Source: Lachnospiraceae bacterium
GTDB lineage: Bacteria > Bacillota > Clostridia > Lachnospirales > Lachnospiraceae
DNA: 38,457 nucleotides
Direction: 5' to 3'
Assembly (NCBI GenBank): GCA_021770245.1
Contig: JAETRI010000036.1
Span: 1 to 38,457, forward strand
The position numbers and the translations under genes are program-made. Positions 6,888 to 26,175 of this stretch are shown one piece after another; within the stretch, counting starts at the first letter, position 1, and every line of letters begins with the position of its first letter. The notes beneath the pieces are model-generated. The model ran no database searches, was not told the origin of the DNA, and saw only the letters and a list, made by a program, of their open reading frames with translations.

Positions 6888-6949
6888 ATGCGTTTGTCCT
6901 GATTTTTTCCTCCCTTCGGTTGACTTCTTTGGCGGTTTCTAGTATATTT

Positions 6950-7345
6950 GGAAAAGAGGCTGCATCCCATACGAACCATCATGCCGCGTCCTTTGCGGCT
7001 GCGCGATCTGAAATTCGCGAATGCATTATGAAAGAGGAAGATGCGGACAGGAAAGGAAACAGTTTGAAACCGCGTTTCAAGATCTTTACTGGTGGCAGTA
7101 TCGCAAGTTCCGCTTGCGATATGCAGGGGGATAAGGACGAAAAATTTTTCAAATCTTTCACTCCCCCTGATTTGTCTGCGCGCCAAGGCGCGCAGATGGG
7201 AGCCAAGTATGAAAGAAGTGCGCTTTCATACTATTGAATTTGTGCCCGCTTTAGCGGGCATGGGATGTAAAGATTGAAAATTAAAATTTTCAATCTTACG
7301 AATTTGGGCCTATTCCCGTTTTGGGAAGACCCAAAACGGGAAAGG
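6950..7345. repeat. Run of different hairpin modules, no gene
   Basis: About 400 bases without a supported gene, densely packed with short inverted repeats: CCGCGTCCTTTGCGG (6984-6998), TTGAAACCGCGTTTCAA (7063-7079), ATCGCAAG/CTTGCGAT (7099-7119), TCTGCGCGCC/GGCGCGCAGA (7175-7196) followed by TGGGAG, AGTATGAAAG/CTTTCATACT, TGCCCGCTTTAGCGGGCA, AAGATTGAAAAT/ATTTTCAATCTT and CCCGTTTTGGG/CCCAAAACGGG (up to about 7341). The 19 bases at 6981-6999 are the exact reverse complement of 18486-18504. The run leads into the gene at 7360. Confidence 0.75.
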
Positions 7346-7359
7346 CATGGGGATAAAAG

Positions 7360-8019
7360 ATGAAACTTCCGCAGAAATTCCCTCTCCGATTGGCTATGAC
7401 CGTCGGCGGGGTTGTTCTTTGTGCGTTGGCCGTGGGTTTTTTTAAGTGTTCCCTTTTCGGCGTTGACCCGTTCCAGTGCCTGGCACAGGGAAGCTGGGGC
7501 CGCTTTTTCGGCGGGATGTCCTATGGGAGCTATTATACGATCCTGTGTTTGATCATGCTGGCGGCCGATCTGTTCCTGGATCGGCATTACATAGGCATTG
7601 CCACTTTTATCAACCTCTTTCTGACGGGTTATATTGCGGATTTTTCCCAGGCTGCGATCAATCGCCTCCTGCCTTCCCCATCGCTGGTCGTGCGTGTGGC
7701 GCTTCTTCTCATCGGGGTAGTGGTGATGTGTTTTGCCGCTTCGCTGTATATGACCTCCGATCTGGGCGTATCCGTTTATGACGCGCTTCCCATCATCATT
7801 TCCAACCGGAGCGGGAAGCCCTTCCGGTTCTGCCGGATCGGCAGTGACTTAATCTGCGTAATCGTCGGGACGCTCTGCGGGCTCCTTCCGGGACTGGGGA
7901 CCCTGGTTACGGCGTTTTTTATGGGGCCCATGATTGAATTTTTTAACAATGTGTTTTCCAGGCCGCTTCTGTACGGAAAGCGGGCGGCGGAAAATGACGG
8001 GAGCAAGATTGATTTCTGA
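7360..8019 (+). CDS. YczE/YitT-like integral membrane protein
   Basis: A 219-residue membrane protein of the YczE/YyaS/YitT type. Hydrophobic helices are visible around LAMTVGGVVLCALAVGFF, YTILCLIMLAADLFL, ATFINLFLTGYIADF, VALLLIGVVVMCFAASLYM and LICVIVGTLCGLLPGLG. Known relatives have five or six helices; the function is unclear (some are linked to transport or surfactin production). It starts at ATG behind GGGGATAAAAG. Its last residues (GSKIDF) are encoded at the edge of the repeat array that follows. Confidence 0.85.
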   Translation: MKLPQKFPLRLAMTVGGVVLCALAVGFFKCSLFGVDPFQCLAQGSWGRFFGGMSYGSYYTILCLIMLAADLFLDRHYIGIATFINLFLTGYIADFSQAAINRLLPSPSLVVRVALLLIGVVVMCFAASLYMTSDLGVSVYDALPIIISNRSGKPFRFCRIGSDLICVIVGTLCGLLPGLGTLVTAFFMGPMIEFFNNVFSRPLLYGKRAAENDGSKIDF

Positions 8020-8024
8020 TTGGA

Positions 8025-8189
8025 ATGCGCGCTAAAGCGCGCGGACGGGATCAAGATTGAAAATCAAGATTTTCAATCTCCCTGATTAGGATGCGCGCTA
8101 AAGCGCGCAGACGGGAGCAAGATTGAAAATCAAGATTTTCAATCTCCCTGATTAGAATGCGCGCCAAAGCGCGCAGACGGGAGCCAGGT
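8025..8189. repeat. Tandem 66-base palindromic units ending at the nrdR ribosome site
   Basis: Three copies start at 8025, 8091 and 8157 with an exact 66-base period; the third is cut after its first half. Each unit is a GC hairpin (TGCGCGC, YAAA, GCGCGC), then GACGGGA(G), then an AT-rich hairpin AGATTGAAAAT/ATTTTCAATCT (8054-8079 in the first), then CTCCCTGATTAG. The last unit ends with GGGAGCCAGGT directly before the nrdR ATG, so its GGGAG is the Shine-Dalgarno. Confidence 0.9.
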
Positions 8190-8654
8190 ATGAAGTGTCC
8201 CTTTTGCAGTCATGAGAATACGAGGGTGATAGATTCCCGTCCCGCGGATGAGAATAATTCCATCCGGCGCCGCCGGGTGTGCGACGAGTGCGGCAAACGG
8301 TTTACCACCTATGAGAAAATCGAGACGATTCCCCTGATCGTTATTAAAAAGGACGACAACAGGGAGAGCTATGATCGTACGAAGATCGAAGCGGGTGTAC
8401 TGCGCGCCTGCCATAAACGTCCGGTGAGCGCCAATCAGATTTCCAGGCTGGTGGACGAGGTGGAGACGGATATTTTCAGCAGGGAAGAAAAGGAGATCCC
8501 CAGCCAGGTGATCGGTGAGCTGGTGATGGACCGCATGAAGGATCTGGACGCGGTGGCCTATGTGCGTTTCGCGTCGGTGTACCGGGAATTCAAGGATATC
8601 AATACCTTCATGGACGAGCTGAAAAAGGTGATGGGGGCGAAGGAGTCGGTTTGA
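8190..8654 (+). CDS. nrdR: Transcriptional repressor NrdR
   Basis: The zinc-ribbon/ATP-cone repressor of ribonucleotide reductase genes, 154 residues, typical length. The zinc ribbon uses Cys3 and Cys6 (MKCPFCSH) and Cys31 and Cys34 (VCDECGKRF); the ATP cone covers about residues 46-136 (IVIKKDDNRESYDRTKI onward). Start ATG 8190 was chosen because the conserved family N-terminus begins here and GGGAG precedes it; a longer frame from 8157 only translates the repeat. The stop overlaps the next gene's TTG start. Confidence 0.97.
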   Translation: MKCPFCSHENTRVIDSRPADENNSIRRRRVCDECGKRFTTYEKIETIPLIVIKKDDNRESYDRTKIEAGVLRACHKRPVSANQISRLVDEVETDIFSREEKEIPSQVIGELVMDRMKDLDAVAYVRFASVYREFKDINTFMDELKKVMGAKESV

Positions 8655-10069
8655 ATAATAGGGAAAAACTGGATTGGAAGGTCTTCTTTCAGGCGGTGGT
8701 CACCATCGCACTGCCTATCGCGTTTCAGAATTTTCTGTCCACCACCGCGAGTATGGTGGATACAATCATGATCGGGAGCCAGGGCGAATTGTCGGTGGCG
8801 GCGGTGGGAATCTGTTCCCAGATCACGTCCCTGTTTTTTTCCTGCTATTTCGGATTCGCCGGAGGAGCGCTGCTCTTCTTTTCCCAATATTGGGGCGCGG
8901 ACAACAGCAAAGGGATTAACAGGACCTTTGGCCTGTCCCTGGCCTGTATGCTGGTGGTGGCGCTGGCGTTCGGCGGGGTGGCGGTGAGCCATCCCGGCTT
9001 TCTGTTGCGGATCTATACGGACAAAGAGAATATCATTGCGGTGGGGATCCCCTATATACGGATTGTAGGTTTCGCCTATCCTCTCCAGGTAATGGCGCTG
9101 ATCATCAGTTTCCTGATGCGCTCCACGGAACGGGTGAAGGCCCCGCTTGTATGTTCCGTTCTGGCGCTTCTGACCAATTTCGTGCTGAACTGGATCCTGA
9201 TCTACGGAAGGTTTGGGATGCCCCGGATGGGTGCGGCCGGCGCAGCCGTGGGAACCCTGGTTTCCGGCATGGTGAATCTGGCCGGGCTTTTGTTGTTTTT
9301 GTGCAGAGACAAAAGCGCCGTGACGATTCGGCTTCGGGATATGTTCTCCTGGGGCGAGGGGTTCTCGGTGACTTATCTGAAGAAATGCCTGCCGATCATC
9401 TGCAACGAATTGTTTTACGGGATCGGGCAGATGCTGATCAATATCGTAATTGGCCATCAGGCGGAGGCGGCCATCGCTGCCATGGCGGCTTTCCGGGTGC
9501 TGGAGGGATTCGTGTTCGCTTTCTTCGGCGGCTTGGCGGATGCCAGTTCCGTTGTGGTAGGAAAGGAAGTGGGCGCGGGAAATCATATGAGAGGGTATCA
9601 GTATGTGAAGGGATTTGCCCTGTTATGCCCGGCCATTACCTTCTGCATCACCGGCGTGGGATTTTTGTTCAACCGGCCGCTCCTGGGGCTGTTCGGGCTG
9701 GGGGCGGAAGCCATGTATTACGGAAAATATATGATCCTGATCTACCTGGCGGCCGGAACGATCCGTACCTGCAATTACATCATGAACAGTTGCTACCGGG
9801 CTGGGGGAGAAGCCGTATTCGGGACCGTACTGGAAATCGTATGTCTGTTTTCCATCAGCGTGCCGGCCACCTGGATTGCTGGAATGGTCCTGCACCTTCC
9901 GTTTTTGGCCGTATTTTCCTTCCTGTATACGGACGAGCTGATCCGGCTGGCTTTTGAGATATGGTATACCGCAGGGGGCAAATGGGTGAAACCTGTGACG
10001 GAAGAGGGGCGGCGGGCGCTGCCTGCTTTCCGGGAGGAACTGGCCGGCAGGAGAAAGAAGCAGGCCTGA
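8651..10069 (+). CDS. MATE family efflux transporter
   Basis: A 472-residue multidrug and toxin extrusion transporter, cation-coupled, in the cytoplasmic membrane. Two six-helix bundles are visible, from IALPIAFQNFLSTTASMVD at the start to VPATWIAGMVLHLPFLAVF near the end. The first helix carries the MVDTIMIG sequence usual in the family. It starts at TTG overlapping the nrdR stop codon by four bases, so translation is coupled. The hydrophilic tail ends in RRKKQA. The substrate is unknown. Confidence 0.92.
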   Translation: MNNREKLDWKVFFQAVVTIALPIAFQNFLSTTASMVDTIMIGSQGELSVAAVGICSQITSLFFSCYFGFAGGALLFFSQYWGADNSKGINRTFGLSLACMLVVALAFGGVAVSHPGFLLRIYTDKENIIAVGIPYIRIVGFAYPLQVMALIISFLMRSTERVKAPLVCSVLALLTNFVLNWILIYGRFGMPRMGAAGAAVGTLVSGMVNLAGLLLFLCRDKSAVTIRLRDMFSWGEGFSVTYLKKCLPIICNELFYGIGQMLINIVIGHQAEAAIAAMAAFRVLEGFVFAFFGGLADASSVVVGKEVGAGNHMRGYQYVKGFALLCPAITFCITGVGFLFNRPLLGLFGLGAEAMYYGKYMILIYLAAGTIRTCNYIMNSCYRAGGEAVFGTVLEIVCLFSISVPATWIAGMVLHLPFLAVFSFLYTDELIRLAFEIWYTAGGKWVKPVTEEGRRALPAFREELAGRRKKQA

Positions 10070-10105
10070 GGATTAGGGCTTCGGAAAGAAAAGGAGACGG
10101 ATAAA

Positions 10106-10150
10106 ATGGCTGCACCCATCCGGCAGGCGCAGCCGAAAGGCAGGACTTGA
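10106..10150 (+). CDS. Possible 14-residue leader peptide
   Basis: ATG behind AAGGAGACGG encodes MAAPIRQAQPKGRT and stops 32 bases before the ferredoxin-type reductase gene. A GGCTGC/GCAGCC hairpin overlaps it. It could be an attenuation leader or chance; no amino-acid bias points to a signal. Confidence 0.25.
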   Translation: MAAPIRQAQPKGRT

Positions 10151-10182
10151 TAAGCATTTTCGGAGAGGGAAAGGAGGCTGTC

Positions 10183-11343
10183 ATGAGATACAGGGAATTG
10201 GGAAAAACGGGCTTGAAGGTGAGCGAAATCGGACTGGGAGGAGAGTGGCTGGAGCGTCATAATACCGAAGAGGTGAAAGCGGTCGTCGATCGCTGCGCCC
10301 GGGCGGGAATCAATATCCTGGACTGCTGGATGTCGGAGCCGAATGTACGTTCCAATATCGGGGCGGCGCTGGAGGGCCGGCGGGAAAACTGGATCATCCA
10401 GGGGCATATCGGTTCCACCTGGCAGGGCGGCCAGTATGTGCGTACCCGCGACCTGAAGAAGGCGGAGGAGGCGTTTTCGGATCTGCTGGTCCGCATGCGC
10501 ACAGACTATATCGATCTGGGGATGATCCACTTCGTGGACGAGAAGGCGGAACTCTCCGCGATCCTGGAGGGGGAATTCCTGGAGTATGTGAAAGACTTAA
10601 AGAGGCAGGGGCGTATCCGTCATATCGGGCTGAGCACCCACAATCCGGATGTGGCAAGGCTGGCGGCCTTAAGCGGCGAGGTGGAAATGATCCTTTTTTC
10701 CGTAAATCCGGCCTTTGACATGCTTCCGGCCAGCGAAAACATCGACGAATACTTCAAGGAAGAATACGATGAGTTCATCGGCGGCATCACGCCGGAGCGC
10801 GCGCAGCTCTACCGGATCTGCGAGCGGCAGGGCGTGGGGATCACGGTGATGAAGGGATATATGGGTGGCCGGCTGTTTACGGCGGAGGCCTCGCCCTTTG
10901 GCGTGGCGCTAAGCCCGGTGCAGTGCCTGCATTATGCCCTAACCCGCCCCGCGGTGGCCAGTGTTATGGCGGGCTTCGATACGCCGGAGCACGTGGATGC
11001 GGCCGTGGCCTATGAGACGGCTTCCGAGGAAGAGAAAGACTATGCCAGCATTCTGGCCGGCGCGCCCAGGCATGCTTATTCCGGCCAGTGTACCTACTGC
11101 GGGCATTGTGCGCCCTGTCCCTCCGGCATTGATATCGCCATGGTGAACAAGCTCTATGACCTGGCGCAGATGCAGGAGGAGATCCCGGCTACCATCCGTG
11201 CCCATTATGAAGGGCTGTCTGCCAATGCCTCCCATTGCGTGGGATGCGGCGGATGCGAGACGCGATGTCCCTTCGGCGTGCATGTGGTAGAACGGATGGC
11301 CCAAACGGCGGAGCTGTTTGGGCGCGGCGAAAAGGAGGCCTGA
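10183..11343 (+). CDS. Aldo/keto reductase with C-terminal 4Fe-4S ferredoxin domain
   Basis: A 386-residue predicted oxidoreductase (COG1453-like): an aldo/keto reductase barrel (about residues 1-285) joined to a bacterial ferredoxin-type domain. The cysteine pattern is Cys303, 306, 309, 312 and Cys352, 355, 358, 362, enough for two 4Fe-4S clusters. In the barrel Asp47 and His116 of the usual tetrad are present, but where Tyr and Lys are expected there are Glu52 and QGH, so classic carbonyl reduction is doubtful. ATG 10183 has AAGGAGG in front; an upstream in-frame codon at 10147 is less likely. The HicB-like gene follows by 38 bases. Confidence 0.9.
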   Translation: MRYRELGKTGLKVSEIGLGGEWLERHNTEEVKAVVDRCARAGINILDCWMSEPNVRSNIGAALEGRRENWIIQGHIGSTWQGGQYVRTRDLKKAEEAFSDLLVRMRTDYIDLGMIHFVDEKAELSAILEGEFLEYVKDLKRQGRIRHIGLSTHNPDVARLAALSGEVEMILFSVNPAFDMLPASENIDEYFKEEYDEFIGGITPERAQLYRICERQGVGITVMKGYMGGRLFTAEASPFGVALSPVQCLHYALTRPAVASVMAGFDTPEHVDAAVAYETASEEEKDYASILAGAPRHAYSGQCTYCGHCAPCPSGIDIAMVNKLYDLAQMQEEIPATIRAHYEGLSANASHCVGCGGCETRCPFGVHVVERMAQTAELFGRGEKEA

Positions 11344-11381
11344 ATTGTCAGCCGCAGGCCGGCGGCAGAAGGTGAGGAGAG

Positions 11382-11660
11382 ATGACGTTTGTATACCCGG
11401 CGGTTTTTACGCCTGACGAGGACAAGAAAGGATATCGTGTGAGCTTCCCGGATCTGGCCTGCTGCACCGCATACGGAGCCGATCTGGAGGATGCGGTGGA
11501 TAACGCCGCGGACGCGGCTTATAACTGGATCCTGTCGGAGATGGAAGAGGAGGACTGCAGTCTGCCGTCTCAGACAGCGCCGGAGCATATCGAGTTAAAG
11601 GAAGGGGAGACGGTCCGCCAGATCATGGTGCGGGTCAAGCTTCTTCCCGATAACGATTAA
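11382..11660 (+). CDS. HicB-like protein, without HicA
   Basis: A 92-residue protein with the HicB partial RNase H-like fold: MTFVYPAVFTPDEDKKGY, then VSFPDLACCTAYGADLEDA and the helix AADAAYNWILSEMEEE. HicB proteins neutralise HicA mRNA interferases. No HicA-sized gene with a conserved GSHH-type motif lies beside it, so this is an orphan antitoxin or a housekeeping relative, which is common in this group. It has a good AGGTGAGGAGAG site. It lies 42 bases before the carboxypeptidase gene and is probably co-transcribed. Confidence 0.82.
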   Translation: MTFVYPAVFTPDEDKKGYRVSFPDLACCTAYGADLEDAVDNAADAAYNWILSEMEEEDCSLPSQTAPEHIELKEGETVRQIMVRVKLLPDND

Positions 11661-11702
11661 GAAGCCATGTCGATACAACAAATGAGGCGAGGAGATTTAC
11701 CG

Positions 11703-13277
11703 ATGAAACACAGGTTCAGGATGACAGGGACGGCGCTGGCTTTGTCGGCTGCGCTTTTGGTACTGTCCCTTCCGACGAGAATTTGGGCGGTGGAGAGCGG
11801 CAGCCCTCCGGTACAGGGAGAGGAAGCCGGAGAAGGGCAGGAAGCACAGCAGACCGGAGAGGACGGTGGGGAGGAAACGTCTCCTTCTGACGAGATGCAG
11901 GATCAGAGCTGGCCTGTCGGGCCGGGCATCGAGGGGGAGTCAGGGATCCTGATGGAGGTATCCACCGGTACGATTCTCTACAGCAAGAATATCCACGCCC
12001 AATACTATCCGGCCAGCATCACGAAGATCCTGACGTCCCTGCTCGTCATAGAAAACTGCGACATGGACGAAATCGTGACGATTCCCCACGAAGCGGTGTA
12101 CATGGACGAGGATAAGGGTTCCCATATTGCGCTGGACGAGGGAGAGGAACTGACGGTAAAGGACTGCCTGTACGGCGTACTGCTGGCCTCTGCCAACGAT
12201 GCGGCCTATGCCCTGGCGATCCATGTATCGGGCAGTATAGAAGGCTTTGCAGCCCTGATGAACAGCCGGGCGCAGGAGCTTGGATGTACGGACAGCCACT
12301 TCATGAATCCCCACGGTCTTCCCAATGAACAGCATCTAACCAGCGCCTACGATATGGCGCTGATCACCAGGGAGGCGCTCAAACATGAGGTTTTCCGGGA
12401 GATCTCCGGAACCGTATTTTATGAAATCCCTCCCTCCGAGAAGCAGCCGGACCAGATTCCCCTGTCCAACCATCACAAGATGCTTACGTCCGGCCCCTAT
12501 CATTATGACGGCGTATTTGCAGGAAAACCGGGATATACGGTGGTTGCGAAGAATACGCTGGTTACCTGTGCGGCCAGGGACGGGATGGAACTGATCTGCG
12601 TGACCATGAAAACCCAGGGGAAGCAGGTCTATGTGGACACTGCAGCCCTCTTCGACTTCGGTTTTGATTCCTTCCATAAACTGGACGTGGGGGAGAACCT
12701 GGCCGGTCTGGCTTCCGTACGCGTCCACGCAAGGACGGAGGGAGAAAAGGACGGTGAGCCTTCCTTAAAACGTCTGCCCCTGAAAGTGGCGCAGGACGGT
12801 TGTGCGGTGGTTCCTGCTCAGGTTACCTTTGCGGATCTGGATCTGGATCTGTACTATGATACGCAGAATGCCGCGCCGGGAGAGGAAGCCCTGCTGGAAT
12901 GCAGCTATGGCGGCCGGCCGGTGGGAAGCACCATGATCGCACTGGCGCTGCCCCTGACTTCGCCGGAGAGGACGCGGCCGGAGGACGCACAAAAAGCGGC
13001 TTCCCGGGTAGAGGCGGGCGAAGGGACGCAGGGGCCCGAAAGGGCGGAAAAGCCTGAAAGGGTGGAACGGAAATGGGAACTGGGCTGGCAGTATGTTGTG
13101 GCCGGGGCCGCCTTGGCAGCCGCACTGGCAGCGGCCGCTTTTCTGGCGGGCCGCAGGATGGTCTGGAAAAACCGATGGCGGAGGCGGAGCGAAAGCTTCT
13201 CTTCTTATTCCGGCTTCGGTTTCAGCTCCGGCCACAGAAGACGCAGACGAAGGAGCGGATGGCGCAGACGAAGATAA
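11703..13277 (+). CDS. D-alanyl-D-alanine carboxypeptidase, DacF type
   Basis: A 524-residue low-molecular-weight penicillin-binding protein that trims peptidoglycan stem peptides outside the membrane. Signal peptide about 1-29 (cut near RIWA/VES), then an acidic Glu/Gly-rich linker (30-75), then the peptidase domain with Ser105-x-x-Lys108 (PASITK) and Ser163-Ala-Asn165. The third motif is Lys275-Pro-Gly (AGKPGYT) instead of the usual Lys-Thr-Gly. A C5-type beta domain follows, then one membrane helix (WQYVVAGAALAAALAAAAFLA) and a very arginine-rich tail. ATG 11703 has AGGAG upstream; an earlier in-frame ATG (11667) would add 12 residues before the signal peptide. DacF-type enzymes often act in spore cortex formation. 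Confidence 0.93.
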   Translation: MKHRFRMTGTALALSAALLVLSLPTRIWAVESGSPPVQGEEAGEGQEAQQTGEDGGEETSPSDEMQDQSWPVGPGIEGESGILMEVSTGTILYSKNIHAQYYPASITKILTSLLVIENCDMDEIVTIPHEAVYMDEDKGSHIALDEGEELTVKDCLYGVLLASANDAAYALAIHVSGSIEGFAALMNSRAQELGCTDSHFMNPHGLPNEQHLTSAYDMALITREALKHEVFREISGTVFYEIPPSEKQPDQIPLSNHHKMLTSGPYHYDGVFAGKPGYTVVAKNTLVTCAARDGMELICVTMKTQGKQVYVDTAALFDFGFDSFHKLDVGENLAGLASVRVHARTEGEKDGEPSLKRLPLKVAQDGCAVVPAQVTFADLDLDLYYDTQNAAPGEEALLECSYGGRPVGSTMIALALPLTSPERTRPEDAQKAASRVEAGEGTQGPERAEKPERVERKWELGWQYVVAGAALAAALAAAAFLAGRRMVWKNRWRRRSESFSSYSGFGFSSGHRRRRRRSGWRRRR

Positions 13278-13314
13278 CGCATAGGGGTTTCCGGTCGCCG
13301 GGCCGCACGATAAC

Positions 13315-13524
13315 CGCATGAATGGCCCTGCGGCCTCTGCGACACCCCGGCCCTGCGGAGCGTGATGATCCATCGGGGACCCGCTTTCGCTCAGCCAAAA
13401 ACGCAGCGGTACTAAGCTCGCAAAGGACATGCTCGCTAAGTGCCGGCGTTTTTGGATGGTCCCCGATGGATCATCACGCTCCGCAGGGCCGGGGTGTCAC
13501 AGAGGCCGCAGGGCCATTCATGCG
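13315..13524. repeat. Near-perfect 210-base hairpin element
   Basis: Two 67-base arms (13315-13381 and 13458-13524) are complementary at 66 of 67 positions; the only mismatch is near 13340. The 76-base centre folds on through CCAAAAACGC/GCGTTTTTGG (13395-13404, 13446-13455) and CGGTACT/AGTGCCG. It lies 38 bases after the carboxypeptidase gene; a shorter relative is at 6787-6887. No open frame of interest is inside. It is likely a non-autonomous repeat element that may also act as terminator. The rest of 13278-13754 has no gene, only the promoter and operator of gntR. Confidence 0.9.
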
Positions 13525-13603
13525 CTTGTCGTACGGCTCCAAAGGGATTCGAATTTGTGTAAAACTACCAGATCGATCGAGAAAAGATTAGTGAATTGTG
13601 CTA

Positions 13604-13632
13604 TTGCAAGAAAGAGAAGATTGTGTAACAAT
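13604..13632 (+). promoter_or_regulatory. Probable promoter of the gntR gene
   Basis: TTGCAA (13604-13609), 17-base spacer, AACAAT (13627-13632). The FadR-type operator begins four bases beyond the -10, where a bound repressor would block initiation. Confidence 0.5.
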
Positions 13633-13636
13633 TAAC

Positions 13637-13647
13637 TTGTCGGACAA
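13637..13647. promoter_or_regulatory. FadR/GntR-type operator upstream of gntR
   Basis: TTGTCGGACAA is a perfect palindrome that fits the known TNGTNNNACNA pattern of FadR-subfamily GntR regulators. The core GTCGGACAACC recurs at 14579 before the binding-protein gene. Confidence 0.65.
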
Positions 13648-13754
13648 CCGATGAATTGCACTCCGAAGAAATCAATCGTAGGTTCTGTCAGAAGACCTCC
13701 GGACGGGCCGGTTACGGCGGGAGAACAGCCTTTATAGAAAAGAGACCAGGCAGA

Positions 13755-14456
13755 ATGATAAATCAGATCAGGAAAAACAACGTATCGGATCAGATCTATC
13801 AACAGATGATGGAGATGATTATCAACGGAACATGGAAAGAAGGACAGATGATTCCTTCGGAAAACGTGCTGAGTGAAGAGTTCGGCGTCAGCCGGGATTC
13901 GGTCAGGCAGTCTATCCATAAGCTGAGCGCCCTGGGCCTGTTAAAATCGAGGCAGGGGAAGGGAACCTATGTGCAGAGAGTGGATATCAGTTTCTATATG
14001 AATCTGCTGGTGCCCTCCCTTTTGCTGAACGAGAGCGACAGCATCACGGTATTGTCCTTTGCGAAGAGTATCCAGGTGGAAAGTACCAGGCTGGTGTGTC
14101 GGAACGCCACGCAGGAAGAGATATTGAATCTTCATTCCTATCTGGATCAGATGGAAGCGGAGAAGGATTATGAGGCCTATTTTAACGAGGATATGGGATA
14201 CCACAAATATCTGTCCTTCCTGACGGGCAATGTGCTCTTCATCAAGGCGATGGAGATCACAGCGGTGCTGCTGCATGAATATCTGCGGGATATCGTGGCG
14301 GTACACGGCAGTAAGAGGAGTATCGAACAGCATATGAAATGTTATCAGGCCCTGCTGGACCGGGACGAGGACAGGGCGATCAGAGTGATGGGGGAGCATT
14401 ATGATATGCTGATAGACAGAGTCATGCACTTTTTACATAAAACAGAAACGACATAA
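13755..14456 (+). CDS. GntR family regulator, FadR subfamily
   Basis: A 233-residue transcription factor. The N-terminal winged helix (about 1-75) contains NNVSDQIYQQMMEMI, MIPSENVLSEEFGVSRDSVRQSIHKL and the wing SRQGKGTYV. The C-terminal part (about 85-230) is an all-helical FCD-type ligand domain, with a DMGYHKYL motif that may carry metal-binding residues. It heads the sugar operon and has a matching operator at its own promoter and another before the binding-protein gene, so it is probably an autoregulated repressor released by a sugar or sugar phosphate. ATG 13755 was chosen because the HTH begins shortly after and AGG lies upstream; the longer frame lacks support. Confidence 0.93.
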   Translation: MINQIRKNNVSDQIYQQMMEMIINGTWKEGQMIPSENVLSEEFGVSRDSVRQSIHKLSALGLLKSRQGKGTYVQRVDISFYMNLLVPSLLLNESDSITVLSFAKSIQVESTRLVCRNATQEEILNLHSYLDQMEAEKDYEAYFNEDMGYHKYLSFLTGNVLFIKAMEITAVLLHEYLRDIVAVHGSKRSIEQHMKCYQALLDRDEDRAIRVMGEHYDMLIDRVMHFLHKTETT

Positions 14457-14576
14457 ACGGGATGCGGGAAAGGAGGGGAGGCCGCGGATGCGGAGACCGC
14501 GATGCCGTATGGCAGCAGGCGGATTTCGCACCGCGCCGCCGCAAGGGGTGCGGTAAGGGTATCATTACGCATCAAG

Positions 14577-14587
14577 ATGTCGGACAA
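14577..14587. promoter_or_regulatory. Second GntR-type operator, before the ABC genes
   Basis: ATGTCGGACAA, ten of eleven positions identical to the site at 13637-13647, with the same following bases (CC). It lies 89 bases upstream of the binding-protein start codon. A nearby ACAAGTTAA (14591-14599) is the reverse complement of TTAACTTGT at 13632-13640. Confidence 0.55.
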
Positions 14588-14644
14588 CCAACAAGTTAAG
14601 GGCCCGGATGCATATGAGGGCAGGACGGGAGAACCCCGGATTTG

Positions 14645-14671
14645 TACGCGCCAAAGTGCGCAGATGGGAGG
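14645..14671. repeat. Palindromic unit with Shine-Dalgarno, before the binding-protein gene
   Basis: ACGCGCCAAAGTGCGCAGA followed by TGGGAGG, one truncated unit of the same family as the nrdR array. Its GGGAGG is the ribosome site of the gene at 14676. A CCGCA/TGCGG hairpin (about 14539-14553) lies further upstream. Confidence 0.75.
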
Positions 14672-14675
14672 AAAA

Positions 14676-16076
14676 ATGATCAGAAAAGGATTTTCGACGC
14701 CAGCAGCGATACTGATGATCGCGGCATTGACACTGACGGGCTGCGGAGGTGGCAAGACGGCAGAGAATACTCCGGCAGCGGAAACATCCCAGGAGACGGA
14801 AGCGTCGGAACGGGAAGCGACGCAGGAAGAAAGCCAGGCGTCGGACGATGCGGCGGAGAAAGAAGGGACGCAGGACAAGGTATACGGCAAGCTGACCATC
14901 TCCGGTGTAACCGGTAATCCGGATCAGTATTTGGTGGATGCGGCGGCCATGGTGACGGCCGCGCATCCCGAAGTAGAGGCGGAATATCCGCCCTGTGACA
15001 CCAATACCAGAGAGCAGGTGATTAAGACCGCCATTTCCGCGGGTGATCCGCCCACTCTGGGATATTATTGGGGAACCCGGGTAAACTCTTTCTATGACAA
15101 CGGGATGTGTCTGGATCTGGCGGATCTGATCGATCCCGAACTGCTTGCGGGAATCAATGACCAGATGCTGGCGCCCTGTAAAGGGGATAACGGCGAAATC
15201 TATGCAGTTCCGCTTAAGTGTGTCTATCATACCTGTTATTACAATAAGGAAATCTTTGACAAGTACGGCTTTGAAGAACCCAGGACCTGGAACGATCTGA
15301 CGGAGATCTTCAAGAGGCTGAAGGAGGACGATATCTTCGGTTTCTCCACCAATTCTGCCTCCATGCAGGACTGCCTGTATGGGATCACCTACGGGGAGCT
15401 GGATGCGAAGGTGGGGCCCGGGACGGCCTATGGCGTTGCCAACGGAGACGTTTCCGTGGCGCCCGGTACGGATGCGGGCAATGTGATCGCGGACTGTATT
15501 AAACAGGTACAGGAATGGTACGAGGCGGGCTACTGGTATCCCGGGGACGGAGGCATCAACTGTTCGCCGGATGATGCGAATGCGGCCTTTGCCCAGGGCA
15601 GATGCGCGGTGATCTTCAATTTCAGCGGTTCCCTCGGAACCCTGGTCCCTTCCTGCGACTTTGAGATCGGCACCTTCTTAAAGCCCACCTCGGATGCGTC
15701 CATAGAATCGGAGGAAAACACGGAGCCCGATGTGTTTTTCATCCCTTCCAATGCCACTCCGGAGCAGGTCAACACGGGTGTTGCTTTTATTGAAGCGCTT
15801 TTGAGCCAGGAGATCCAGCAGGCGGTAGTGGAGGGAAACCAGATCCCGTCCATGACCATCTATGAATATACGGACATGAGCCCGATCCTGGCGGAGGTAA
15901 TCGATATTTTCAATACGAGTAAGATCGAAGCCGGCCTGAATCCCACCAGGACCAGTTCGGAAATGCAGACCTTCATCAAGCAGCAGATCTTCGCTGCGCC
16001 CTGCAGCGGTCAGATGACGATCGATCAGACGCTGGAGGAGATGGAGCGGATCCGTCTGGCGGCCGGCGGACAATAG
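14676..16076 (+). CDS. ABC transporter sugar-binding lipoprotein
   Basis: A family 1 extracellular solute-binding protein, 466 residues, lipid-anchored outside the membrane. The signal peptide ends in the lipobox LTLTGCGGG, with Cys23 as lipidation site, followed by a Glu/Ala-rich linker. The mature part has the usual two-lobed binding-protein features, for example YAVPLKCVYHTCYYNKEIFD and FAQGRCAVIFNFSGS. ATG 14676 follows GGGAGG. It probably delivers a mono- or oligosaccharide to the two permeases encoded next; from the downstream enzymes, a deoxyhexose or pentose (or a glycoside of one) is likely. Confidence 0.93.
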   Translation: MIRKGFSTPAAILMIAALTLTGCGGGKTAENTPAAETSQETEASEREATQEESQASDDAAEKEGTQDKVYGKLTISGVTGNPDQYLVDAAAMVTAAHPEVEAEYPPCDTNTREQVIKTAISAGDPPTLGYYWGTRVNSFYDNGMCLDLADLIDPELLAGINDQMLAPCKGDNGEIYAVPLKCVYHTCYYNKEIFDKYGFEEPRTWNDLTEIFKRLKEDDIFGFSTNSASMQDCLYGITYGELDAKVGPGTAYGVANGDVSVAPGTDAGNVIADCIKQVQEWYEAGYWYPGDGGINCSPDDANAAFAQGRCAVIFNFSGSLGTLVPSCDFEIGTFLKPTSDASIESEENTEPDVFFIPSNATPEQVNTGVAFIEALLSQEIQQAVVEGNQIPSMTIYEYTDMSPILAEVIDIFNTSKIEAGLNPTRTSSEMQTFIKQQIFAAPCSGQMTIDQTLEEMERIRLAAGGQ

Positions 16077-16085
16077 GACGGGGAT

Positions 16086-16118
16086 TTTACCGGGAAGCGG
16101 AAGGCGCTTCCCGGTAAA
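16086..16118 (+). promoter_or_regulatory. Intercistronic hairpin
   Basis: A perfect 14-base inverted repeat (TTTACCGGGAAGCG, complement at 16105-16118) with a GAAGG loop and no T-tract, between the binding-protein and permease genes. Such stems are known to protect the upstream mRNA and give excess binding protein; that role is inferred here. Confidence 0.7.
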
Positions 16119-16137
16119 TCAGAATAGGAGGACAAAT

Positions 16138-17034
16138 TTGCGGGAAAAAGCAAAAAGAATACCCAAAAGTATGCTGATAGGATGGGCCTTCCTGCTTCCC
16201 TCCATCCTTCTGTATGTGGTTTTTATGATCTATCCGCTGCTTAGGACATTCTATTTGTCTTTAACCAGCTGGAGCGGCTTCGGTGAGGCGGAATATATCG
16301 GCTTTTCTAACTTCCTTTCCTTGTTTACGGATACGATGTTTCTGCGGGCGCTGAAGAACACGCTGTATTTTGCGGTCGTATCAGGCATTCTGAGCGTGCT
16401 GGCGGGTATCCTCATGGCCTGGCTGAATCTCTTTATCAGGAGACTGGAAGGACAGGTCACGCGGACAATCCTCTTCGTCCCCAATATGATCGCACCCACC
16501 ATTACGGGCCTTTTGTTTATGTTTATTTTCACGGAGGATATCGGCCTGCTGAATAATATCCTCCGGGCCGTGGGGCTGGACCGTCTGGCCACGGCCTGGC
16601 TGGTCAATCCGAAGACCGTGGGCCCTTCCATTGTCGCGGCACAGATATGGAGACAGTTCGGCCTGACTATGATCCTGTGCTTTGCCGGGTTCCAGGGAAT
16701 CCCGGCCGGGCTGATCGAAGCGGCGCGGATCGACGGGGCGGGTGTCTTCAAGGTTTTCACCCGGGTCATGCTCCCTCTGATCAAGCCGCAGATCGAACTG
16801 GCGACCATGTTCACGCTGTTGGGCGGGCTGAAAATCTATGATTCCGTGGTGTCCCTCACGGGGGGCGGCCCGGCCCGGCAGACAGTGGTCCTGCCCATGT
16901 ATATCATAGAAAACGCATTTACCTATTCCAAGTTCGGATATGCCAGCGCGATGTGTGTGGCGTTTCTTTTCATCGTGCTTGTGTTCATCATCCTGTTACG
17001 ATTCGTATTCAGAGGAGAAAACTATGAATATTGA
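16138..17034 (+). CDS. ABC transporter permease, MalF/UgpA type
   Basis: A 298-residue sugar permease with about six membrane helices, from SMLIGWAFLLPSILLYVVFM to CVAFLFIVLVFIILL. The EAA loop that contacts the ATPase is EAARIDGAGVFKVFTRVMLP. It starts at TTG behind AGGAGG (six-base spacing). It overlaps the next permease gene by 11 bases. No ATPase is encoded nearby, so a shared MsmK/UgpC-type ATPase elsewhere must power it. Confidence 0.94.
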   Translation: MREKAKRIPKSMLIGWAFLLPSILLYVVFMIYPLLRTFYLSLTSWSGFGEAEYIGFSNFLSLFTDTMFLRALKNTLYFAVVSGILSVLAGILMAWLNLFIRRLEGQVTRTILFVPNMIAPTITGLLFMFIFTEDIGLLNNILRAVGLDRLATAWLVNPKTVGPSIVAAQIWRQFGLTMILCFAGFQGIPAGLIEAARIDGAGVFKVFTRVMLPLIKPQIELATMFTLLGGLKIYDSVVSLTGGGPARQTVVLPMYIIENAFTYSKFGYASAMCVAFLFIVLVFIILLRFVFRGENYEY

Positions 17035-17887
17035 ATACAAGAAAGAAGAGAAAGGCATGTTTTCCAACCGTTATGTCAGGCTCCTCTCCAGGATATTTAC
17101 CGTGCTTCTGTGCCTGGTGGTGGTCTATCCGCTGGTCTTTACGATTCTGGTTTCTTTTAAAAACAATCAGGAATTCTACTCAAATATCTGGGGGCTTCCC
17201 CGGATATGGAGATGGGAAAACTACAGCTATGCATGGACGGAAGGAAAGATCGGGCAGTATGCCATAAACAGTGTGATCGTCACGCTGAGCGCGGTGACCG
17301 GGTCGGTTCTCGTTACGGCCTTTGGCGGATATGCGCTTTCCAAGATGAGGATTCCAAAGGCCAATCTGATCCTTTCCGCATTCATGGTGTTTAACTTCGT
17401 ACCCGGGGTTGCCTATTATATCCCGCTCTACTCGCAGATGATCGGGCTCCGTCTCAGCGGGACGCTGTTCATGCTGATCCTGCCCTATCTGGCATGGCAG
17501 ATCCCGTTCAGCGTCTATATTTTTAAAAACTTTTTCGATTCCATCCCCTCCGAACTGACGGAGGCGGCGAGGATGGACGGGGCGGCGGAACTTCAGGTTT
17601 TCTTTCAGATCATGCTGCCGCTGGTGACGCCGGCGCTGGCCACCGTCACGGTGTTCAACTTTATCAGTATCTGGGGGGAATATATGTGGGCCAGCATTTC
17701 GGCGACGTCCTCCGCGAAGATACAGACCATCCCTGTGGGGCTGCTCTATTTCCGGGGGGAATACGGGATCGAATGGGGCCCTTTCGCGGCGGCGATTACG
17801 ATCATTGTTGTTCCGCTGATCGTTGTTTTCATCTATTTTCAGAAGTATTTCGTTCAGGGGATCACGTCCGGTGCCGTAAAGGGATGA
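17024..17887 (+). CDS. ABC transporter permease, MalG type
   Basis: A 287-residue partner permease of the CUT1 class, about six helices (first around VLLCLVVVYPLVFTILVSF). The EAA loop reads EAARMDGAAELQVFFQIMLP. It starts at ATG inside the end of the previous gene behind AGAGGAGA, so translation is coupled. It ends with YFVQGITSGAVKG, the normal C-terminus of the family. Confidence 0.94.
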   Translation: MNIEYKKEEKGMFSNRYVRLLSRIFTVLLCLVVVYPLVFTILVSFKNNQEFYSNIWGLPRIWRWENYSYAWTEGKIGQYAINSVIVTLSAVTGSVLVTAFGGYALSKMRIPKANLILSAFMVFNFVPGVAYYIPLYSQMIGLRLSGTLFMLILPYLAWQIPFSVYIFKNFFDSIPSELTEAARMDGAAELQVFFQIMLPLVTPALATVTVFNFISIWGEYMWASISATSSAKIQTIPVGLLYFRGEYGIEWGPFAAAITIIVVPLIVVFIYFQKYFVQGITSGAVKG

Positions 17888-17934
17888 GAGTATACGAAAA
17901 AAGGCCGCCTGAGAGCGGCGGAAAGGAAGGCAGA

Positions 17935-18365
17935 ATGTATCTGGCGGGAAGAAGTCATATCATACAGGATCGTTCTCTGATCGATACCATGAGGATGTTC
18001 CATGGGATGGGCTATGGCGGCCTGGAGTTGAGCCTGCAGCACGGCATGGGAAAATGGCTTGATACGAATTATCTGGAAGACTATGTGACGTGGGCCATTT
18101 CTACCTGTCGGAAAAGGATCTCTATGCGGCCATGGAGAGGGCAAAGGATTATATCTGCTATTCCCACATCGACAATATGTGCATGGGAGAGCATTGCCAT
18201 AAGCTGCCCTGGGAAGGGGACATCGACCTGCCGGCAGCATACAGGAAGCTGAAATCCCTGGGATATGACGGGCCGGTTTCCCTGGATATCTATATTCAGG
18301 ATTATGCGGCCGTGGCGCCGCAGTGCCTGTCGTATATTAATGAGAATGTATTCGGGCTTTTATAG
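17935..18365 (+). pseudogene. Sugar phosphate isomerase/epimerase, internally deleted
   Basis: The remnant of a xylose-isomerase-like TIM-barrel protein. ATG 17935 behind AGGAAGG opens about 50 residues typical of the N-terminus (FHGMGYGGLELSLQHGMG). At about 18085-18092 this joins, in another frame, a good C-terminal part: DVGHFYLSEKDLYAAMERAK, then YICYSHIDN, ending YINENVFGLL. Family members have about 260-290 residues, so roughly 130-150 middle codons, with most active-site residues, are gone. The join has GTGAC beside GACGTG, a possible microhomology. It lies between the permease and flavin oxidoreductase genes. Confidence 0.85.
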
Positions 18366-18392
18366 ATAAGGATGCAAAAGAAGATCCTGAGT

Positions 18393-18508
18393 TGAGTGCC
18401 CGCCAGGGCGGGCGGATGGGAGAATCGCAGATGAGAAACCGTATTCGCGATTTCTCAGACATGAATCAAAGATTCATGTTGCGTTGCCGCAAAGGACGCG
18501 GCATGAAA
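18393..18508. repeat. Cluster of hairpin modules before the flavin oxidoreductase gene
   Basis: In order: GCCCGCCAGGGCGGGC followed by GGATGGGAG, GAGAAA/TTTCTC around CGTATTCGCG, ATGAATCAAAGATTCAT, and GCCGCAAAGGACGCGGCAT (18486-18504). The last is the exact reverse complement of 6981-6999. The first module is a divergent form of the GGGAG unit seen before nrdR, but here the start codon lies about 95 bases on and uses another ribosome site. Confidence 0.75.
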
Positions 18509-18517
18509 GGGGTTAAC

Positions 18518-19885
18518 ATGAAAAAAGTTTTAAAGCCATATCAATTCCGGGAGTATGCGTCTTCCGGGGAATTTGCGGCGGCCATGGCGGCGGACGGGCT
18601 GGAGTTTCCGGTGTCCGATGATCTGGGGATCTTATTTGAACCTCTGGTGATCGGGAACAAGGTGATTCCTAACCGCCTCTGTTCCCAGCCCTGCGAGGGA
18701 TTTGACGGAGAACCGGACGGTTCCCCGTCCGACCTGGATTTCAGGAGATACATAAGGATAGCCGGGGGCGGCGTAGGCCTGCTGTGGTGGGAATCGATTG
18801 CCATTTCCGAGGACGGCAGGTGTAATCCGCTGCAGATGGTGATACGGCCTTCTACGGTGGGTAAGATCGGGGAAATGGTGGATGCGGCGAACGCGGAGGC
18901 AAGGAAGAATTTCGGCAGGAGACCTTATAACGTGCTGCAGCTGACCCATTCGGGAAGGCGCAGCAACAATAAAAACTGGGAATCCACCCCGCTGGCGGTC
19001 TGCGAGAACCCCTATATGGATTCCCATACGAGTATTGACGGCAGCAGGGGAGAGATCCAAATTGCCACGGACGATAAGATTGAGGAGATTGTGAGAGGCT
19101 TTATCGACGGGGCGATTCTGGCCGCGCAGGCCGGATTTGATGCGGTGGATATCAAGATCTGCCACGAATACATCCTGCGGGAACTTTTGTCCGCATTCAC
19201 CCGCCCGGGTAAATACGGCGGAAGCTTCGAAAACAGGACCAGGGCTGTTTTTGAAATTATTGACGGCATCCGTGAACAGCTGGGGGATTCCCTGGACGTC
19301 TGTGTGCGGCTGAACGCCTATGACTGTGTGCCGTATCCGTATGGATGGGGCATGAAGATGGAAGAGGGCGTGGTGGAGCCGGATCTCACCGAGCCGATCC
19401 GGTTATGTAAGATGCTGGTGGAGAGAGGCGTACGGATTATCGATATCACTACGATGATGCCCAGGTACAAGCCCTTCGGAAGGGGCTTGATGGCGGAACA
19501 TGAGGAGGGGCCGGAGGCGCAGATCAATCCCTATGAGGGTGTATATGAGCTGATGAAGGCGACCAGGACGATTAAAGAAGCCGTGCCCGAGGCATTCTTT
19601 GTGAGCACCGGCATGACCTGGCTGGAGCAGTTCGGCGGGCATGTCACCGCCGGAGCGATCCGGGACGGCTGGTTCGATATCGGCGGTTTCGGCAGACAGT
19701 TCATGGCGTATCCGGATTTCCCGACGGATCTGAAGAGGGAAGGCGTTATGCACAGAGAAAAATGCTGCATGCTCTGTGATAAGTGCTATGACCTGATCCA
19801 GAAAGGCCATTGTCAGACCGGCTGCGTCATGAGGGATCAGGAGATTTATTTGAAGTTGCTGCGGGAAAAGGTACTGGGCAGGTAA
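18518..19885 (+). CDS. Old yellow enzyme-like NADH:flavin oxidoreductase with Fe-S site
   Basis: A 455-residue FMN-dependent oxidoreductase of the OYE/2,4-dienoyl-CoA reductase family. The barrel has GDLGILFEPLVIG-like entry residues (DDLGILFEPLVIGNKVIPNR), the flavin/substrate motif QLTHSGRRS with His144, and DAVDIKICHEYILRELLS. The C-terminus carries a cysteine cluster, CCMLCDKC and then HCQTGC, in the position of the 4Fe-4S site of the larger family members, but the second flavin/NAD domain is absent. ATG 18518 has AAAGGGG upstream. Its place inside a sugar operon suggests it reduces or oxidises a keto- or unsaturated sugar derivative; this is inference. Confidence 0.88.
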   Translation: MKKVLKPYQFREYASSGEFAAAMAADGLEFPVSDDLGILFEPLVIGNKVIPNRLCSQPCEGFDGEPDGSPSDLDFRRYIRIAGGGVGLLWWESIAISEDGRCNPLQMVIRPSTVGKIGEMVDAANAEARKNFGRRPYNVLQLTHSGRRSNNKNWESTPLAVCENPYMDSHTSIDGSRGEIQIATDDKIEEIVRGFIDGAILAAQAGFDAVDIKICHEYILRELLSAFTRPGKYGGSFENRTRAVFEIIDGIREQLGDSLDVCVRLNAYDCVPYPYGWGMKMEEGVVEPDLTEPIRLCKMLVERGVRIIDITTMMPRYKPFGRGLMAEHEEGPEAQINPYEGVYELMKATRTIKEAVPEAFFVSTGMTWLEQFGGHVTAGAIRDGWFDIGGFGRQFMAYPDFPTDLKREGVMHREKCCMLCDKCYDLIQKGHCQTGCVMRDQEIYLKLLREKVLGR

Positions 19886-19914
19886 AACCGGCGAAGGGAG
19901 GTAAAACGAGAGGG

Positions 19915-21150
19915 ATGATGGACAGGATCGACCGTGGATATGAAATCGCCAGGGAAATGTATGCCGAGATCGGTGTGGACACTGACCTGGCGATGAAAAA
20001 GCTGGACGAGATACCGGTCAGCATGCATTGCTGGCAGATCGATGACCTGAGCGGATTTGAGAATCCGGATAAAGGACTGACCGGCGGGATAGCGGCTACA
20101 GGAAGGGATCCCAGCAAGGCGAAGAACAAAGACGAATTTTACAGGAACCTGGAAAAAGCGCTGTCCCTGGTTCCCGGAAAGAAAAAGGTGGCGCTCCATG
20201 CGATCTACCTGGATAATTTCGGCAGCTTTGTGGAGCGGGATGTGATCGAGCCGGCCCATTTTGCACCCTGGGCGGATTGGGCGCAGGCCCATGGCGTGGG
20301 GCTGGATTTCAATCCCACCTATTTCAGCCACGAAAGGGCGGATACGGATTTCACCCTGTCGAGCTATGATCCCCGGATCCGGGCGTTCTGGATCGAGCAC
20401 GGAAAACGCTGCAGGAGGATCAGCGCATACCTGGGAGAGCGGCTGGGAGAGACCTGCATCGATAATCACTGGATCCCGGACGGCTACAAGGATCTGACGG
20501 TGGACAGACAGGCGCACAGGGAACTGCTGATAGACAGCATGGACCAGGTCATGGCGGAGGAGTATGACGCAGGATATACCATTGACAGCTGGGAGAGCAA
20601 GCTTTTCGGACTGGGACTGGAGAGCTACACGGTGGGCTCCCATGAATTCTATACCAACTATGCCATGACCCATAAAAACTGTATGGTATGTATGGATATG
20701 GGGCATTTCCATCCCACGGAACAGGTCGCGGACAAGCTGACGTCCTACCTGGCCTTCGGGAAAGAGGTGATGCTTCATGTGAGCCGTCCGGTACGATGGG
20801 ATTCGGATCATGTGGTGATCCTCAGCGATGAGGTAAGAGACGTGATGGCGGAGATCTGCAGGCAGGATGCCTTCGCACGGGTACATATCGGCACGGATTA
20901 TTTTGATGCCTCGATCAACAGGATCGCTGCACAGGCTCTGGGCGCCAGGAGCATTAAGCAGGCGCTGCTGTACGGCCTGCTGGAGCCTGCAGGCCGACTG
21001 AAGGAATATGAGAGGGAAGGGGATTATACCCGCCGGCTGGCCTATCTGGAGAGCCAGAAGGCGATGCCCTTCGGCCTGGTTTGGGATATGTACTGTCAGA
21101 AAAACGGCGTGCCGGCAAGGGACTGGGTGGAAAGCGCCCTGCGCGGATAA
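19915..21150 (+). CDS. rhaA: L-rhamnose isomerase family protein (RhaA type)
   Basis: A 411-residue metal-dependent aldose-ketose isomerase. Strong family blocks: IPVSMHCWQIDDLSGFENP, LTGGIAATG, LGLDFNPTYFSH-like (VGLDFNPTYFSHERAD), WIPDGYKDLTVDR, GLESYTVGSHEFY, MDMGHFHPTEQ, HVSRPVRWDSDHV and DYFDASINRIAA. Known RhaA enzymes interconvert L-rhamnose and L-rhamnulose and also L-lyxose and L-xylulose. Here the neighbouring kinase resembles L-xylulokinase and no rhamnulose-1-phosphate aldolase is present, so L-lyxose or a similar sugar may be the true substrate. The start is ATG 19915 or 19918 after GGGAGG. Confidence 0.94.
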   Translation: MMDRIDRGYEIAREMYAEIGVDTDLAMKKLDEIPVSMHCWQIDDLSGFENPDKGLTGGIAATGRDPSKAKNKDEFYRNLEKALSLVPGKKKVALHAIYLDNFGSFVERDVIEPAHFAPWADWAQAHGVGLDFNPTYFSHERADTDFTLSSYDPRIRAFWIEHGKRCRRISAYLGERLGETCIDNHWIPDGYKDLTVDRQAHRELLIDSMDQVMAEEYDAGYTIDSWESKLFGLGLESYTVGSHEFYTNYAMTHKNCMVCMDMGHFHPTEQVADKLTSYLAFGKEVMLHVSRPVRWDSDHVVILSDEVRDVMAEICRQDAFARVHIGTDYFDASINRIAAQALGARSIKQALLYGLLEPAGRLKEYEREGDYTRRLAYLESQKAMPFGLVWDMYCQKNGVPARDWVESALRG

Positions 21151-21159
21151 AACGGGATC

Positions 21160-21255
21160 AGAGAGCGCCAAGGCGCGCAGAGGGGAGCAAGGTTGAAAGA
21201 AGGACGCTTTCAACCTCCCTGATTAGAGAGCGCGCCAAGGCGCGCGGAGGGGAGC
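21160..21255. repeat. Two palindromic units ending at the reductase ribosome site
   Basis: Unit one: AGCGCCAAGGCGCGCAGAGG, GGAGCAAGGTTGAAAG and complement CTTTCAACC, CTCCCTGATTAG. Unit two: GCGCGCCAAGGCGCGC, GGAGGGGAGCAAAAC, then the ATG at 21261. Same architecture as the nrdR array, with compensating changes in the AT hairpin (GGTTGAAAG/CTTTCAACC), and again the final unit supplies the Shine-Dalgarno. Confidence 0.88.
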
Positions 21256-21260
21256 AAAAC

Positions 21261-22244: not shown

Positions 22245-22416
22245 ACGGGGCGCGGCGGAAGTAATAGGAAGGGGCTGCTGCAGGGCAGGGAGCCGATGCC
22301 ATATAGGACGTCCATGTACCTCCATGACCGACCCTGCCTTGTAACCGATCTGTGTTTTGCAGCGGTTCCTGTCCGAAACGGAAAGCCGTCTGTCGGCGGC
22401 GGAATGAGAGAAAAGG

Positions 22417-22770: not shown

Positions 22771-22820
22771 GAGAAACGGATGATCGGACGCCTGGGGAAA
22801 CGGGCAGGAAGTGTGCGACT

Positions 22821-24344: not shown

Positions 24345-24406
24345 ATCCGGGGAAGGATGTATTTTCCAAAGGGACAAGACGGCGTGGGACGGAAAGGGAA
24401 TCTGCC

Positions 24407-25267: not shown

Positions 25268-25273
25268 TATAAT
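25246..25273 (+). promoter_or_regulatory. Sigma-A promoter of the secreted-protein gene
   Basis: TTGTTT (25246-25251), 16-base spacer, TATAAT (25268-25273). It overlaps the end of the epimerase gene, so the secreted protein has its own promoter and marks the end of the sugar operon. Confidence 0.65.
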
Positions 25274-25327
25274 CATTTTATAGGCGGATAGGCCGGAACG
25301 ATTCTGAAAGAAACGGAGGAAAGGCGG

Positions 25328-26056: not shown

Positions 26057-26139
26057 GGGAAAACGTCCGGGCGGCGATTTTGGGCGTCAAAGCGTCTTGC
26101 CGCCGGCGGCGTTATAACGGATTTATTAAAATTGAACCT

Positions 26140-26168: not shown

Positions 26169-26175
26169 AACAATG

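Follow-up and report, generated by a model that had tools for sequence, protein, structure and literature searches.

This locus raises the question of why a gene such as nrdR should be preceded by a tandem series of palindromes whose last member ends in a Shine-Dalgarno (SD) sequence. The DNA analysed here (the window) is the 38,457-nt contig JAETRI010000036.1, positions 1-38,457, from Lachnospiraceae bacterium GCA_021770245.1, whose genome we call G000 (4,281,116 bases in 237 contigs), and the repeat modules, nrdR and the empty site located below lie on its forward strand. The nrdR leader contains 2.6 tandem copies of a 66-base unit at 8016-8184 (94% matches), where a sequence-only reading of this DNA had reported tandem units of about 66 bases. 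Each unit runs in the order GC hairpin, AGACGGGAG, 26-nt AT palindrome, CTCCCTGATT. The left end of the array (7999-8019) is made up of GGGAG, a remnant of the AT hairpin, and CTGATT, the TGA of which (8017-8019) terminates the upstream gene at 7360-8019, and the first unit overlaps the end of that gene. Unit 1 comprises a GC hairpin with a decayed SD (8027-8051; GGGAT, at 8047) and an AT hairpin formed by a 26-nt palindrome (8054-8079) and followed by CTCCCTGATT; unit 2 comprises a GC hairpin with GGGAG (8093-8117) and an AT hairpin (8120-8145), again followed by CTCCCTGATT. The terminal GC hairpin and its GGGAG (8159-8183), the presumed nrdR SD, then lie 6 nt before the ATG of nrdR itself (8190-8654, encoding Zn_ribbon_NrdR and ATP-cone domains).

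Related units had been proposed at three other places in the window, and they are found at 14644-14670, at about 21164-21254 and at 26332-26473. The first is a solo module preceding the gene for a solute-binding protein (ATG 14676); the congener G011 has it too, with a changed stem. The second is an array before an aldo/keto reductase gene (ATG 21261), with a first GC module at 21164-21187, an AT hairpin with the arms GGTTGAAAG and CTTTCAACC at 21191-21215, and a terminal GC hairpin with GGGAG at 21230-21254. The third, of 2.1 tandem units with 82% matches, precedes a MatE gene (ATG 26467) and has its first GC module at 26371-26395, its AT hairpin at 26398-26423 and its terminal GC hairpin with GGGAG at 26437-26461; an additional ATG is seen at 26464, 2 nt past the GGGAG. 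At all four places, nrdR included, the last unit ends in GGGAG and the start codon (8190, 14676, 21261, 26467) follows 5-6 nt on. Two window copies had been overlooked. One, a GC hairpin with a AGATGGGAG module at 7178-7202, sits in a 214-nt repeat mosaic ahead of the gene at 7360, which is probably the next start used; this mosaic is an insertion missing from G011. The other, at 18398-18422, is followed by another palindrome (AATCGCAGATGAG family) and is not clearly at a start codon, and probably not in contact with it. Pfam matches for five window genes point to unrelated functions (NrdR, solute binding, FMN oxidoreductase, aldo/keto reductase and MatE). We also see that the region 7060-7360 is a mosaic leader with four different hairpin+SD-like palindromes in series.

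A pattern describing the GC hairpin plus GGAG gave 210 matches in G000 (109 forward and 101 reverse) and 246 in G011 (119 and 127), whereas the same pattern read backwards gave none in either genome. The contrast of 210 with zero in G000 excludes chance, and the palindromic repeat is real and genome-wide. Several G000 contigs open within an array (at base 2 for C63 and C91, at base 22 for C187), so the assembly probably understates array length. In the remaining 11 genomes of the genus that were searched, 0-12 matches each were counted. Outside the genus, one of 28 genomes gave a single match, and in a wider draw from the family 35 of 397 genomes had a match, G000 and G011 included, mostly with one or two copies, some of them chance-like. 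Forms that have the AGAYGGGAG tail in full are clear for G291 (23 matches), G341 (19), G376 (11) and G115 (5). An exact-pattern scan of named genomes, which may omit records of our own genome or one very near it, returned two contigs, both from one uncultured Lachnospiraceae MAG. A phage origin was rejected, as the strict form had no exact match in viral_contigs. No description of such repeats in Lachnospiraceae was found in the open-licence PMC literature.

The relationship to start codons was assessed with 112 readable distinct modules from G000 and 91 from G011, drawn from the surroundings of matches and from a further 400 kb and 335 kb, respectively, and leaving aside modules with less than 150 nt downstream. 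In G000, 65 modules reach a start codon with a long ORF, 31 have an AT hairpin next, 2 have both and 14 neither; the corresponding numbers for G011 are 51, 22, 3 and 15. Among terminal modules, meaning those with no AT hairpin after them, 65/79 in G000 and 51/66 in G011 therefore lead to a start codon and long ORF, against 423/2327 (18%) and 366/1902 (19%) of the other RGGAG sites in contiguous samples (Fisher p 2e-33 and 4e-23). The expected strong preference of copies for ending at start codons, compared with other such sites, is clearly borne out. The automatic rule leaves 14/79 and 15/66 terminal modules with no long ORF, and by eye some of these precede short genes or other palindromes. 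One of the successes counted, the module at 18398, is questionable, as the homologous start is situated further downstream. The start follows GGAG at a distance of 5-6 nt in 91/116 cases, with a range of 4-11 nt. A co-directional ORF lies within 300 nt upstream of 58/61 and 46/51 terminal modules, compared to a baseline of 79/101. We infer that the terminal GGGAG serves as the SD of the downstream gene.

Looking across copies, the element can be described as an AT hairpin about 4 nt past an existing SD, a linker (C)CTGATTTGNAT, a GC hairpin and the tail AGAYRGGAG. To assess covariation, modules were matched with no requirement for complementarity of the two middle stem pairs, and only these were tested, the outer GC pairs being fixed. 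Both middle pairs are Watson-Crick in 95/104 modules of G000, 78/89 of G011 and 21/21 from other genera, compared to shuffle means of 34.7, 22.4 and 8.8 (maxima 48, 34 and 17). This version of the test allows loops of 3 and 4, and was adopted after a weak result with fixed 4-nt loops (0.580 in G000 vs a shuffle mean of 0.540 and maximum of 0.602), where the contrast was weak because loops of 3 were misaligned. The AT hairpin likewise has compensated arms (GATTGAAAAT vs GGTTGAAAG), as had been stated. In the array at 21164-21254, both AT hairpins shown for G011 are identical, with arms GATGAAAG and CTTTCATC, at the position where G000 has GGTTGAAAG and CTTTCAACC; judged from these arms, the difference is a paired change plus homogenisation. 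The covariation of the GC hairpin and the paired AT-hairpin change between species together agree with the proposal that structure is kept by compensated changes.

The same core recurs outside the genus, where we see 21 modules in 20 stretches from seven genomes, 13 of them leading straight into an ORF of 146 codons or more. Both the linker ATCCTGATTTGTAT and the tail AGATGGGAG are found in other genera, and the AT hairpins there include GTGTGAAAT../..ATTTCACAC, GGTTGAA../..TTCAACC and others. At locus L338 of G341, a module lies about 10 nt before an ORF that we take, by eye, to be rplP (ribosomal protein L16). A search of the window with Rfam covariance models gave no match at the gathering score and two irrelevant sub-threshold matches.

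Conserved linkers and covarying hairpins could also belong to a regulatory 5′ leader RNA, in which the hairpins and GGGAG act as a switch or as a protein site, for example for CsrA, which binds GGA motifs, and in which tandem copies strengthen the effect. In complete units the GGGAG (or the decayed GGGAT at 8047) does lie opposite CTCCC or CTCTC, on the other side of the AT hairpin, and could pair with it; the sequence-only reading had noted GGGAG against CTCCC. When segments of only 170 nt were folded, the mean unpaired probability of GGGAG was 0.35 (n=33) in G000 and 0.30 (n=19) in G011 for interior copies, and 0.40 (n=65) and 0.45 (n=53) for terminal copies, with ordinary SDs at 0.42 (n=80). 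The suggested masking of interior GGGAG holds weakly, in that these are slightly less open than the terminal ones, but the difference is small and CTCCC is not universal: the second subtype and most other-genus copies lack it, having GATCC or ATCC instead. For these reasons, masking across the AT hairpin was rejected as a general switch. CsrA was found in 9/10 genomes tested, including G000 and G011, but does not follow copy number, being present in G012 (8 pattern matches) and G001 (7) and missing in G010 (9). Given in addition the unrelated functions of the five Pfam-matched window genes, the absence of an Rfam match, and the fact that only 5/15 sites are common to the sister species, as detailed below, we consider a regulatory leader improbable.

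A start-like codon, NTGAA, follows the SD in 76/93 distinct AT-hairpin cores (N being T in 54, G in 15, A in 5 and C in 2). It is in frame with the TGA of CTGATT, which lies ahead of the GC hairpin, in 42/76 cores where one third is expected (binomial p 7e-5, for cores that are related by descent). A mini-ORF encoding a leader peptide was rejected as the main function, because 17/93 cores have no NTGAA and some have lost it via paired changes that preserve the hairpin. As an accessory feature it is possible.

Turnover of the repeat was followed by aligning syntenic blocks of G000 and G011: window 6900-26899 against contig C36 (85% identity), L184 against C56 (84%) and L192 against C19 (82%). 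Fifteen comparable module sites were counted from the pattern and the listed indels, with the site at 26371 uncounted as it falls outside synteny; 5 are shared, 5 are found only in G000 and 5 only in G011. The shared sites are nrdR (array vs single diverged hairpin), 14644, 21164, L184 column 16465 (decayed in G011) and L192 column 6471. Those specific to G000 are 7178, 18398 (poorly alignable), L184 column 8130, L184 minus-strand column 5922 (dtd-like) and L192 column 3500, and those specific to G011 are window 17022, L184 2020, L184 13338 (decayed), L192 column 16200 and L192 minus-strand column 4283. A separate ortholog search, judged by eye, found 4/9 sites shared, and no module was seen at the 8 orthologs located in G012. 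Copy number and presence therefore vary between related species, which fits a leader element that is mobile or expanding.

Three of these differences are clean empty/filled pairs, all filled in G011, for which the G000 allele is a plain SD plus start codon. The inserts are 45-93 nt long and lie within about 10 nt past the native SD. At the first site (window 17012-17026, a native GAGGAG SD plus ATG), 93 nt with a module lie between SD and ATG in G011, giving the arrangement GAGGAGAAAA / 93 nt / CTATG; the other two read GGAGGGAG.. / 45 nt / ..ATG and GGAGGTA.. / 71 nt / TATG. The 45- and 71-nt inserts finish in a new GGGAG beside the start. The 93-nt insert carries a module with GGCGGGAG, but its start-adjacent SD is GCAGGGGG, which forms the tail of a different repeat family. 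In the opposite direction, the 214-nt mosaic of G000 is flanked by an SD-bearing repeat on one side and, on the other, by the start used nearby in G011. The polarity of insertion is read from three clean sites and one mosaic, and the alignment places the exact joint only to within a few nt. By eye, the clean 71- and 93-nt insertions show no duplication beyond the SD itself. The dtd joint is not clean, as the native TTGAAAG there belongs to a hairpin arm. At L184 2020 and L192 column 3500, a hairpin+SD from a different sequence family occupies the site in the other species, which suggests repeated overwriting of leaders. An SD-like 4-mer is found within 16 nt to the left of 23/41 left-end units compared to 9/41 control positions, which is suggestive only.

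The repeat has a fixed position and orientation, covarying hairpins and tandem arrays, and it is present or absent at sites whose empty allele is a native SD plus start. We propose, with a probability of roughly 0.6 and on the strength of sequence comparison, that it is a palindromic intercistronic repeat family that carries a ribosome-binding site, spreads 3′ of SDs, re-supplies the SD and so hardly disturbs translation. A new copy would enter just 3′ of an existing SD and end in a new GGGAG. With this GGGAG at the end of the insert, the downstream gene would keep an SD at normal spacing, and the insertion would be nearly neutral for translation. Because each insertion would leave a new SD, further copies could land and build arrays, while selection would keep only the last GGGAG and upstream units would decay. 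The best reading of these comparisons is that the repeat moves or has moved recently, and it looks more like a translation-preserving mobile repeat than a regulator. That it is a mobile element using the SD as a landing site and regenerating it at its 3′ end, possibly by single-strand transposition with GGAG cleaved at both ends, is a tentative refinement that we hold at a little under even odds. CTCCC and GGGAG could also act as short inverted ends, in the fashion of a MITE.

A generic element at mRNA 5′ ends could produce some of the same features if a stable hairpin upstream of an SD were favoured, stabilising or separating cistrons, and if copies arose by tandem duplication and gene conversion with no mobility. 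Modules are indeed intercistronic above baseline, and array units are homogenised within a species and different between species. Three sequence-unrelated hairpin+SD families in the G000 and G011 samples are start-associated (7/10, 4/5 and 2/3 copies), so a hairpin ahead of an SD could be advantageous in general; a fourth is not (0/4), and none of these other families was seen in 400 kb of G012. However, a mere hairpin needs neither the linker CTGATTTGNAT nor the tail AGAYRGGAG, both of which are conserved in sequence across genera, and clean insertions occur where the other species has no hairpin. In the same 400 kb of G012, hairpins with a stem of at least 6 precede 8/852 GGGAG sites, which is not clearly commoner than before other 5-mers. 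A genus-wide habit of placing hairpins before SDs was rejected on this result, and the enrichment belongs to G000 and G011. Such a processing element is in our view an unlikely source of the family, about as unlikely as a regulatory leader.

If the spreading repeat family that we favour is mobile, a mover might be expected, and one candidate is a Y1 transposase of the IS200/IS605 or RAYT type acting on a REP/BIME- or PATE-like element. The ends of IS200/IS605 elements have subterminal hairpins, short fixed flanks and no obvious target duplication. Our repeat similarly has two subterminal hairpins and short fixed flanks, with no obvious target duplication except GGAG, and Y1_Tnp is present in 6/13 genomes of the genus. 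But Y1_Tnp (PF01797) gave no match, even at E 10, in G000 and G011, which hold the most copies, or in G341, G376 and G115, although with assemblies 96-97% complete for G000 and G011 this absence is not absolute. A strict module scan of 30 Y1 loci, fetched from among more Y1 matches listed, found no module in the flanks of any. We rejected a Y1/RAYT transposase as the mover, since it was not found in module-rich genomes, and a Y1-moved element is the least probable of the explanations weighed here.

Other repeats lie nearby in the window. At 13302-13537, 80-nt arms that are 95% complementary stand 76 nt apart, and the structure is missing at the G011 counterpart; relatives of the stretch 13367-13464 occur elsewhere in G011 and at many places in the congener G001. 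This looks like a separate palindromic mobile repeat. The 34-nt inverted copies at 6979-7012 and 18473-18506 carry a CGCAAAGGACGCGGCATGA-type palindrome and represent another intergenic repeat family. Two 162-nt direct repeats, 72% alike, are found at 35885-36046 and 36704-36865 within one long ORF.

Intergenic repeats are usually thought to survive by avoiding gene starts. The family described here does the reverse and takes up ribosome-binding sites; apparently it evades selection because it replaces the site that it hits. If this is true, then the leaders of hundreds of genes, housekeeping genes like nrdR included, have been rewritten in a lineage-specific manner, in a genome that absorbs hundreds of gene-start insertions, stacks them in tandem and still translates every gene. 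The family would then serve as a natural collection of translation-initiation regions, modular and open to comparison, and as a clear test of how mobile DNA spares its host.

Several known repeats share parts of this behaviour. The TAACTGA direct repeats of Beggiatoaceae, as described in part of PMC4679880, form arrays several nt upstream of starts, have a suspected translational role and, like our repeat, precede genes with no common function; they are seven-base repeats with no hairpins in genomes where canonical ribosome sites are rare, whereas the Lachnospiraceae repeat carries the SD. The sections of PMC3049150 on pneumococcal BOX, RUP and SPRITE describe modular structured repeats with a variable number of modules, again as here, and the 3′ end of a gene is in some cases provided by a BOX copy, as CTGATT provides it for the gene upstream of nrdR. 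Unlike our repeat, these three are over-represented between convergent genes and not at SDs. The resemblance to REP, BIME and REPIN lies in small palindromic extragenic repeats with more than 100 copies per genome, compensated stems, and both singletons and clusters. The REPs treated in the relevant part of PMC3733652 have GTAG or CGTC tags, and many lie near the 3′ ends of genes. No GTAG or CGTC tag was found at the foot of our palindrome, which has the tail AGAYRGGAG and, on the 5′ side, CTGATTTGNAT; its copies share one orientation and are located at gene starts, and the two genomes richest in them gave no Y1 transposase match. MIRU, as outlined in part of a 2025 review (PMC12548453), appear to be mobile and insert at start codons, where expression is maintained through an internal ORF that is coupled to the gene, with an overlap of -4 nt. 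The Lachnospiraceae repeat is likewise short, tandem-prone and placed between, and oriented with, co-directional genes, and the little effect on expression at start codons that is a feature of MIRU would apply to it also. It differs in that the start lies 4-11 nt past a fresh GGGAG, the possible AT-hairpin mini-ORF ends well upstream, each unit has two covarying hairpins, and the phylum is different. As it shows no such coupling of an internal ORF, it is not a MIRU. On our best reading REP/RAYT fits badly, and MIRU represent the nearest known strategy.
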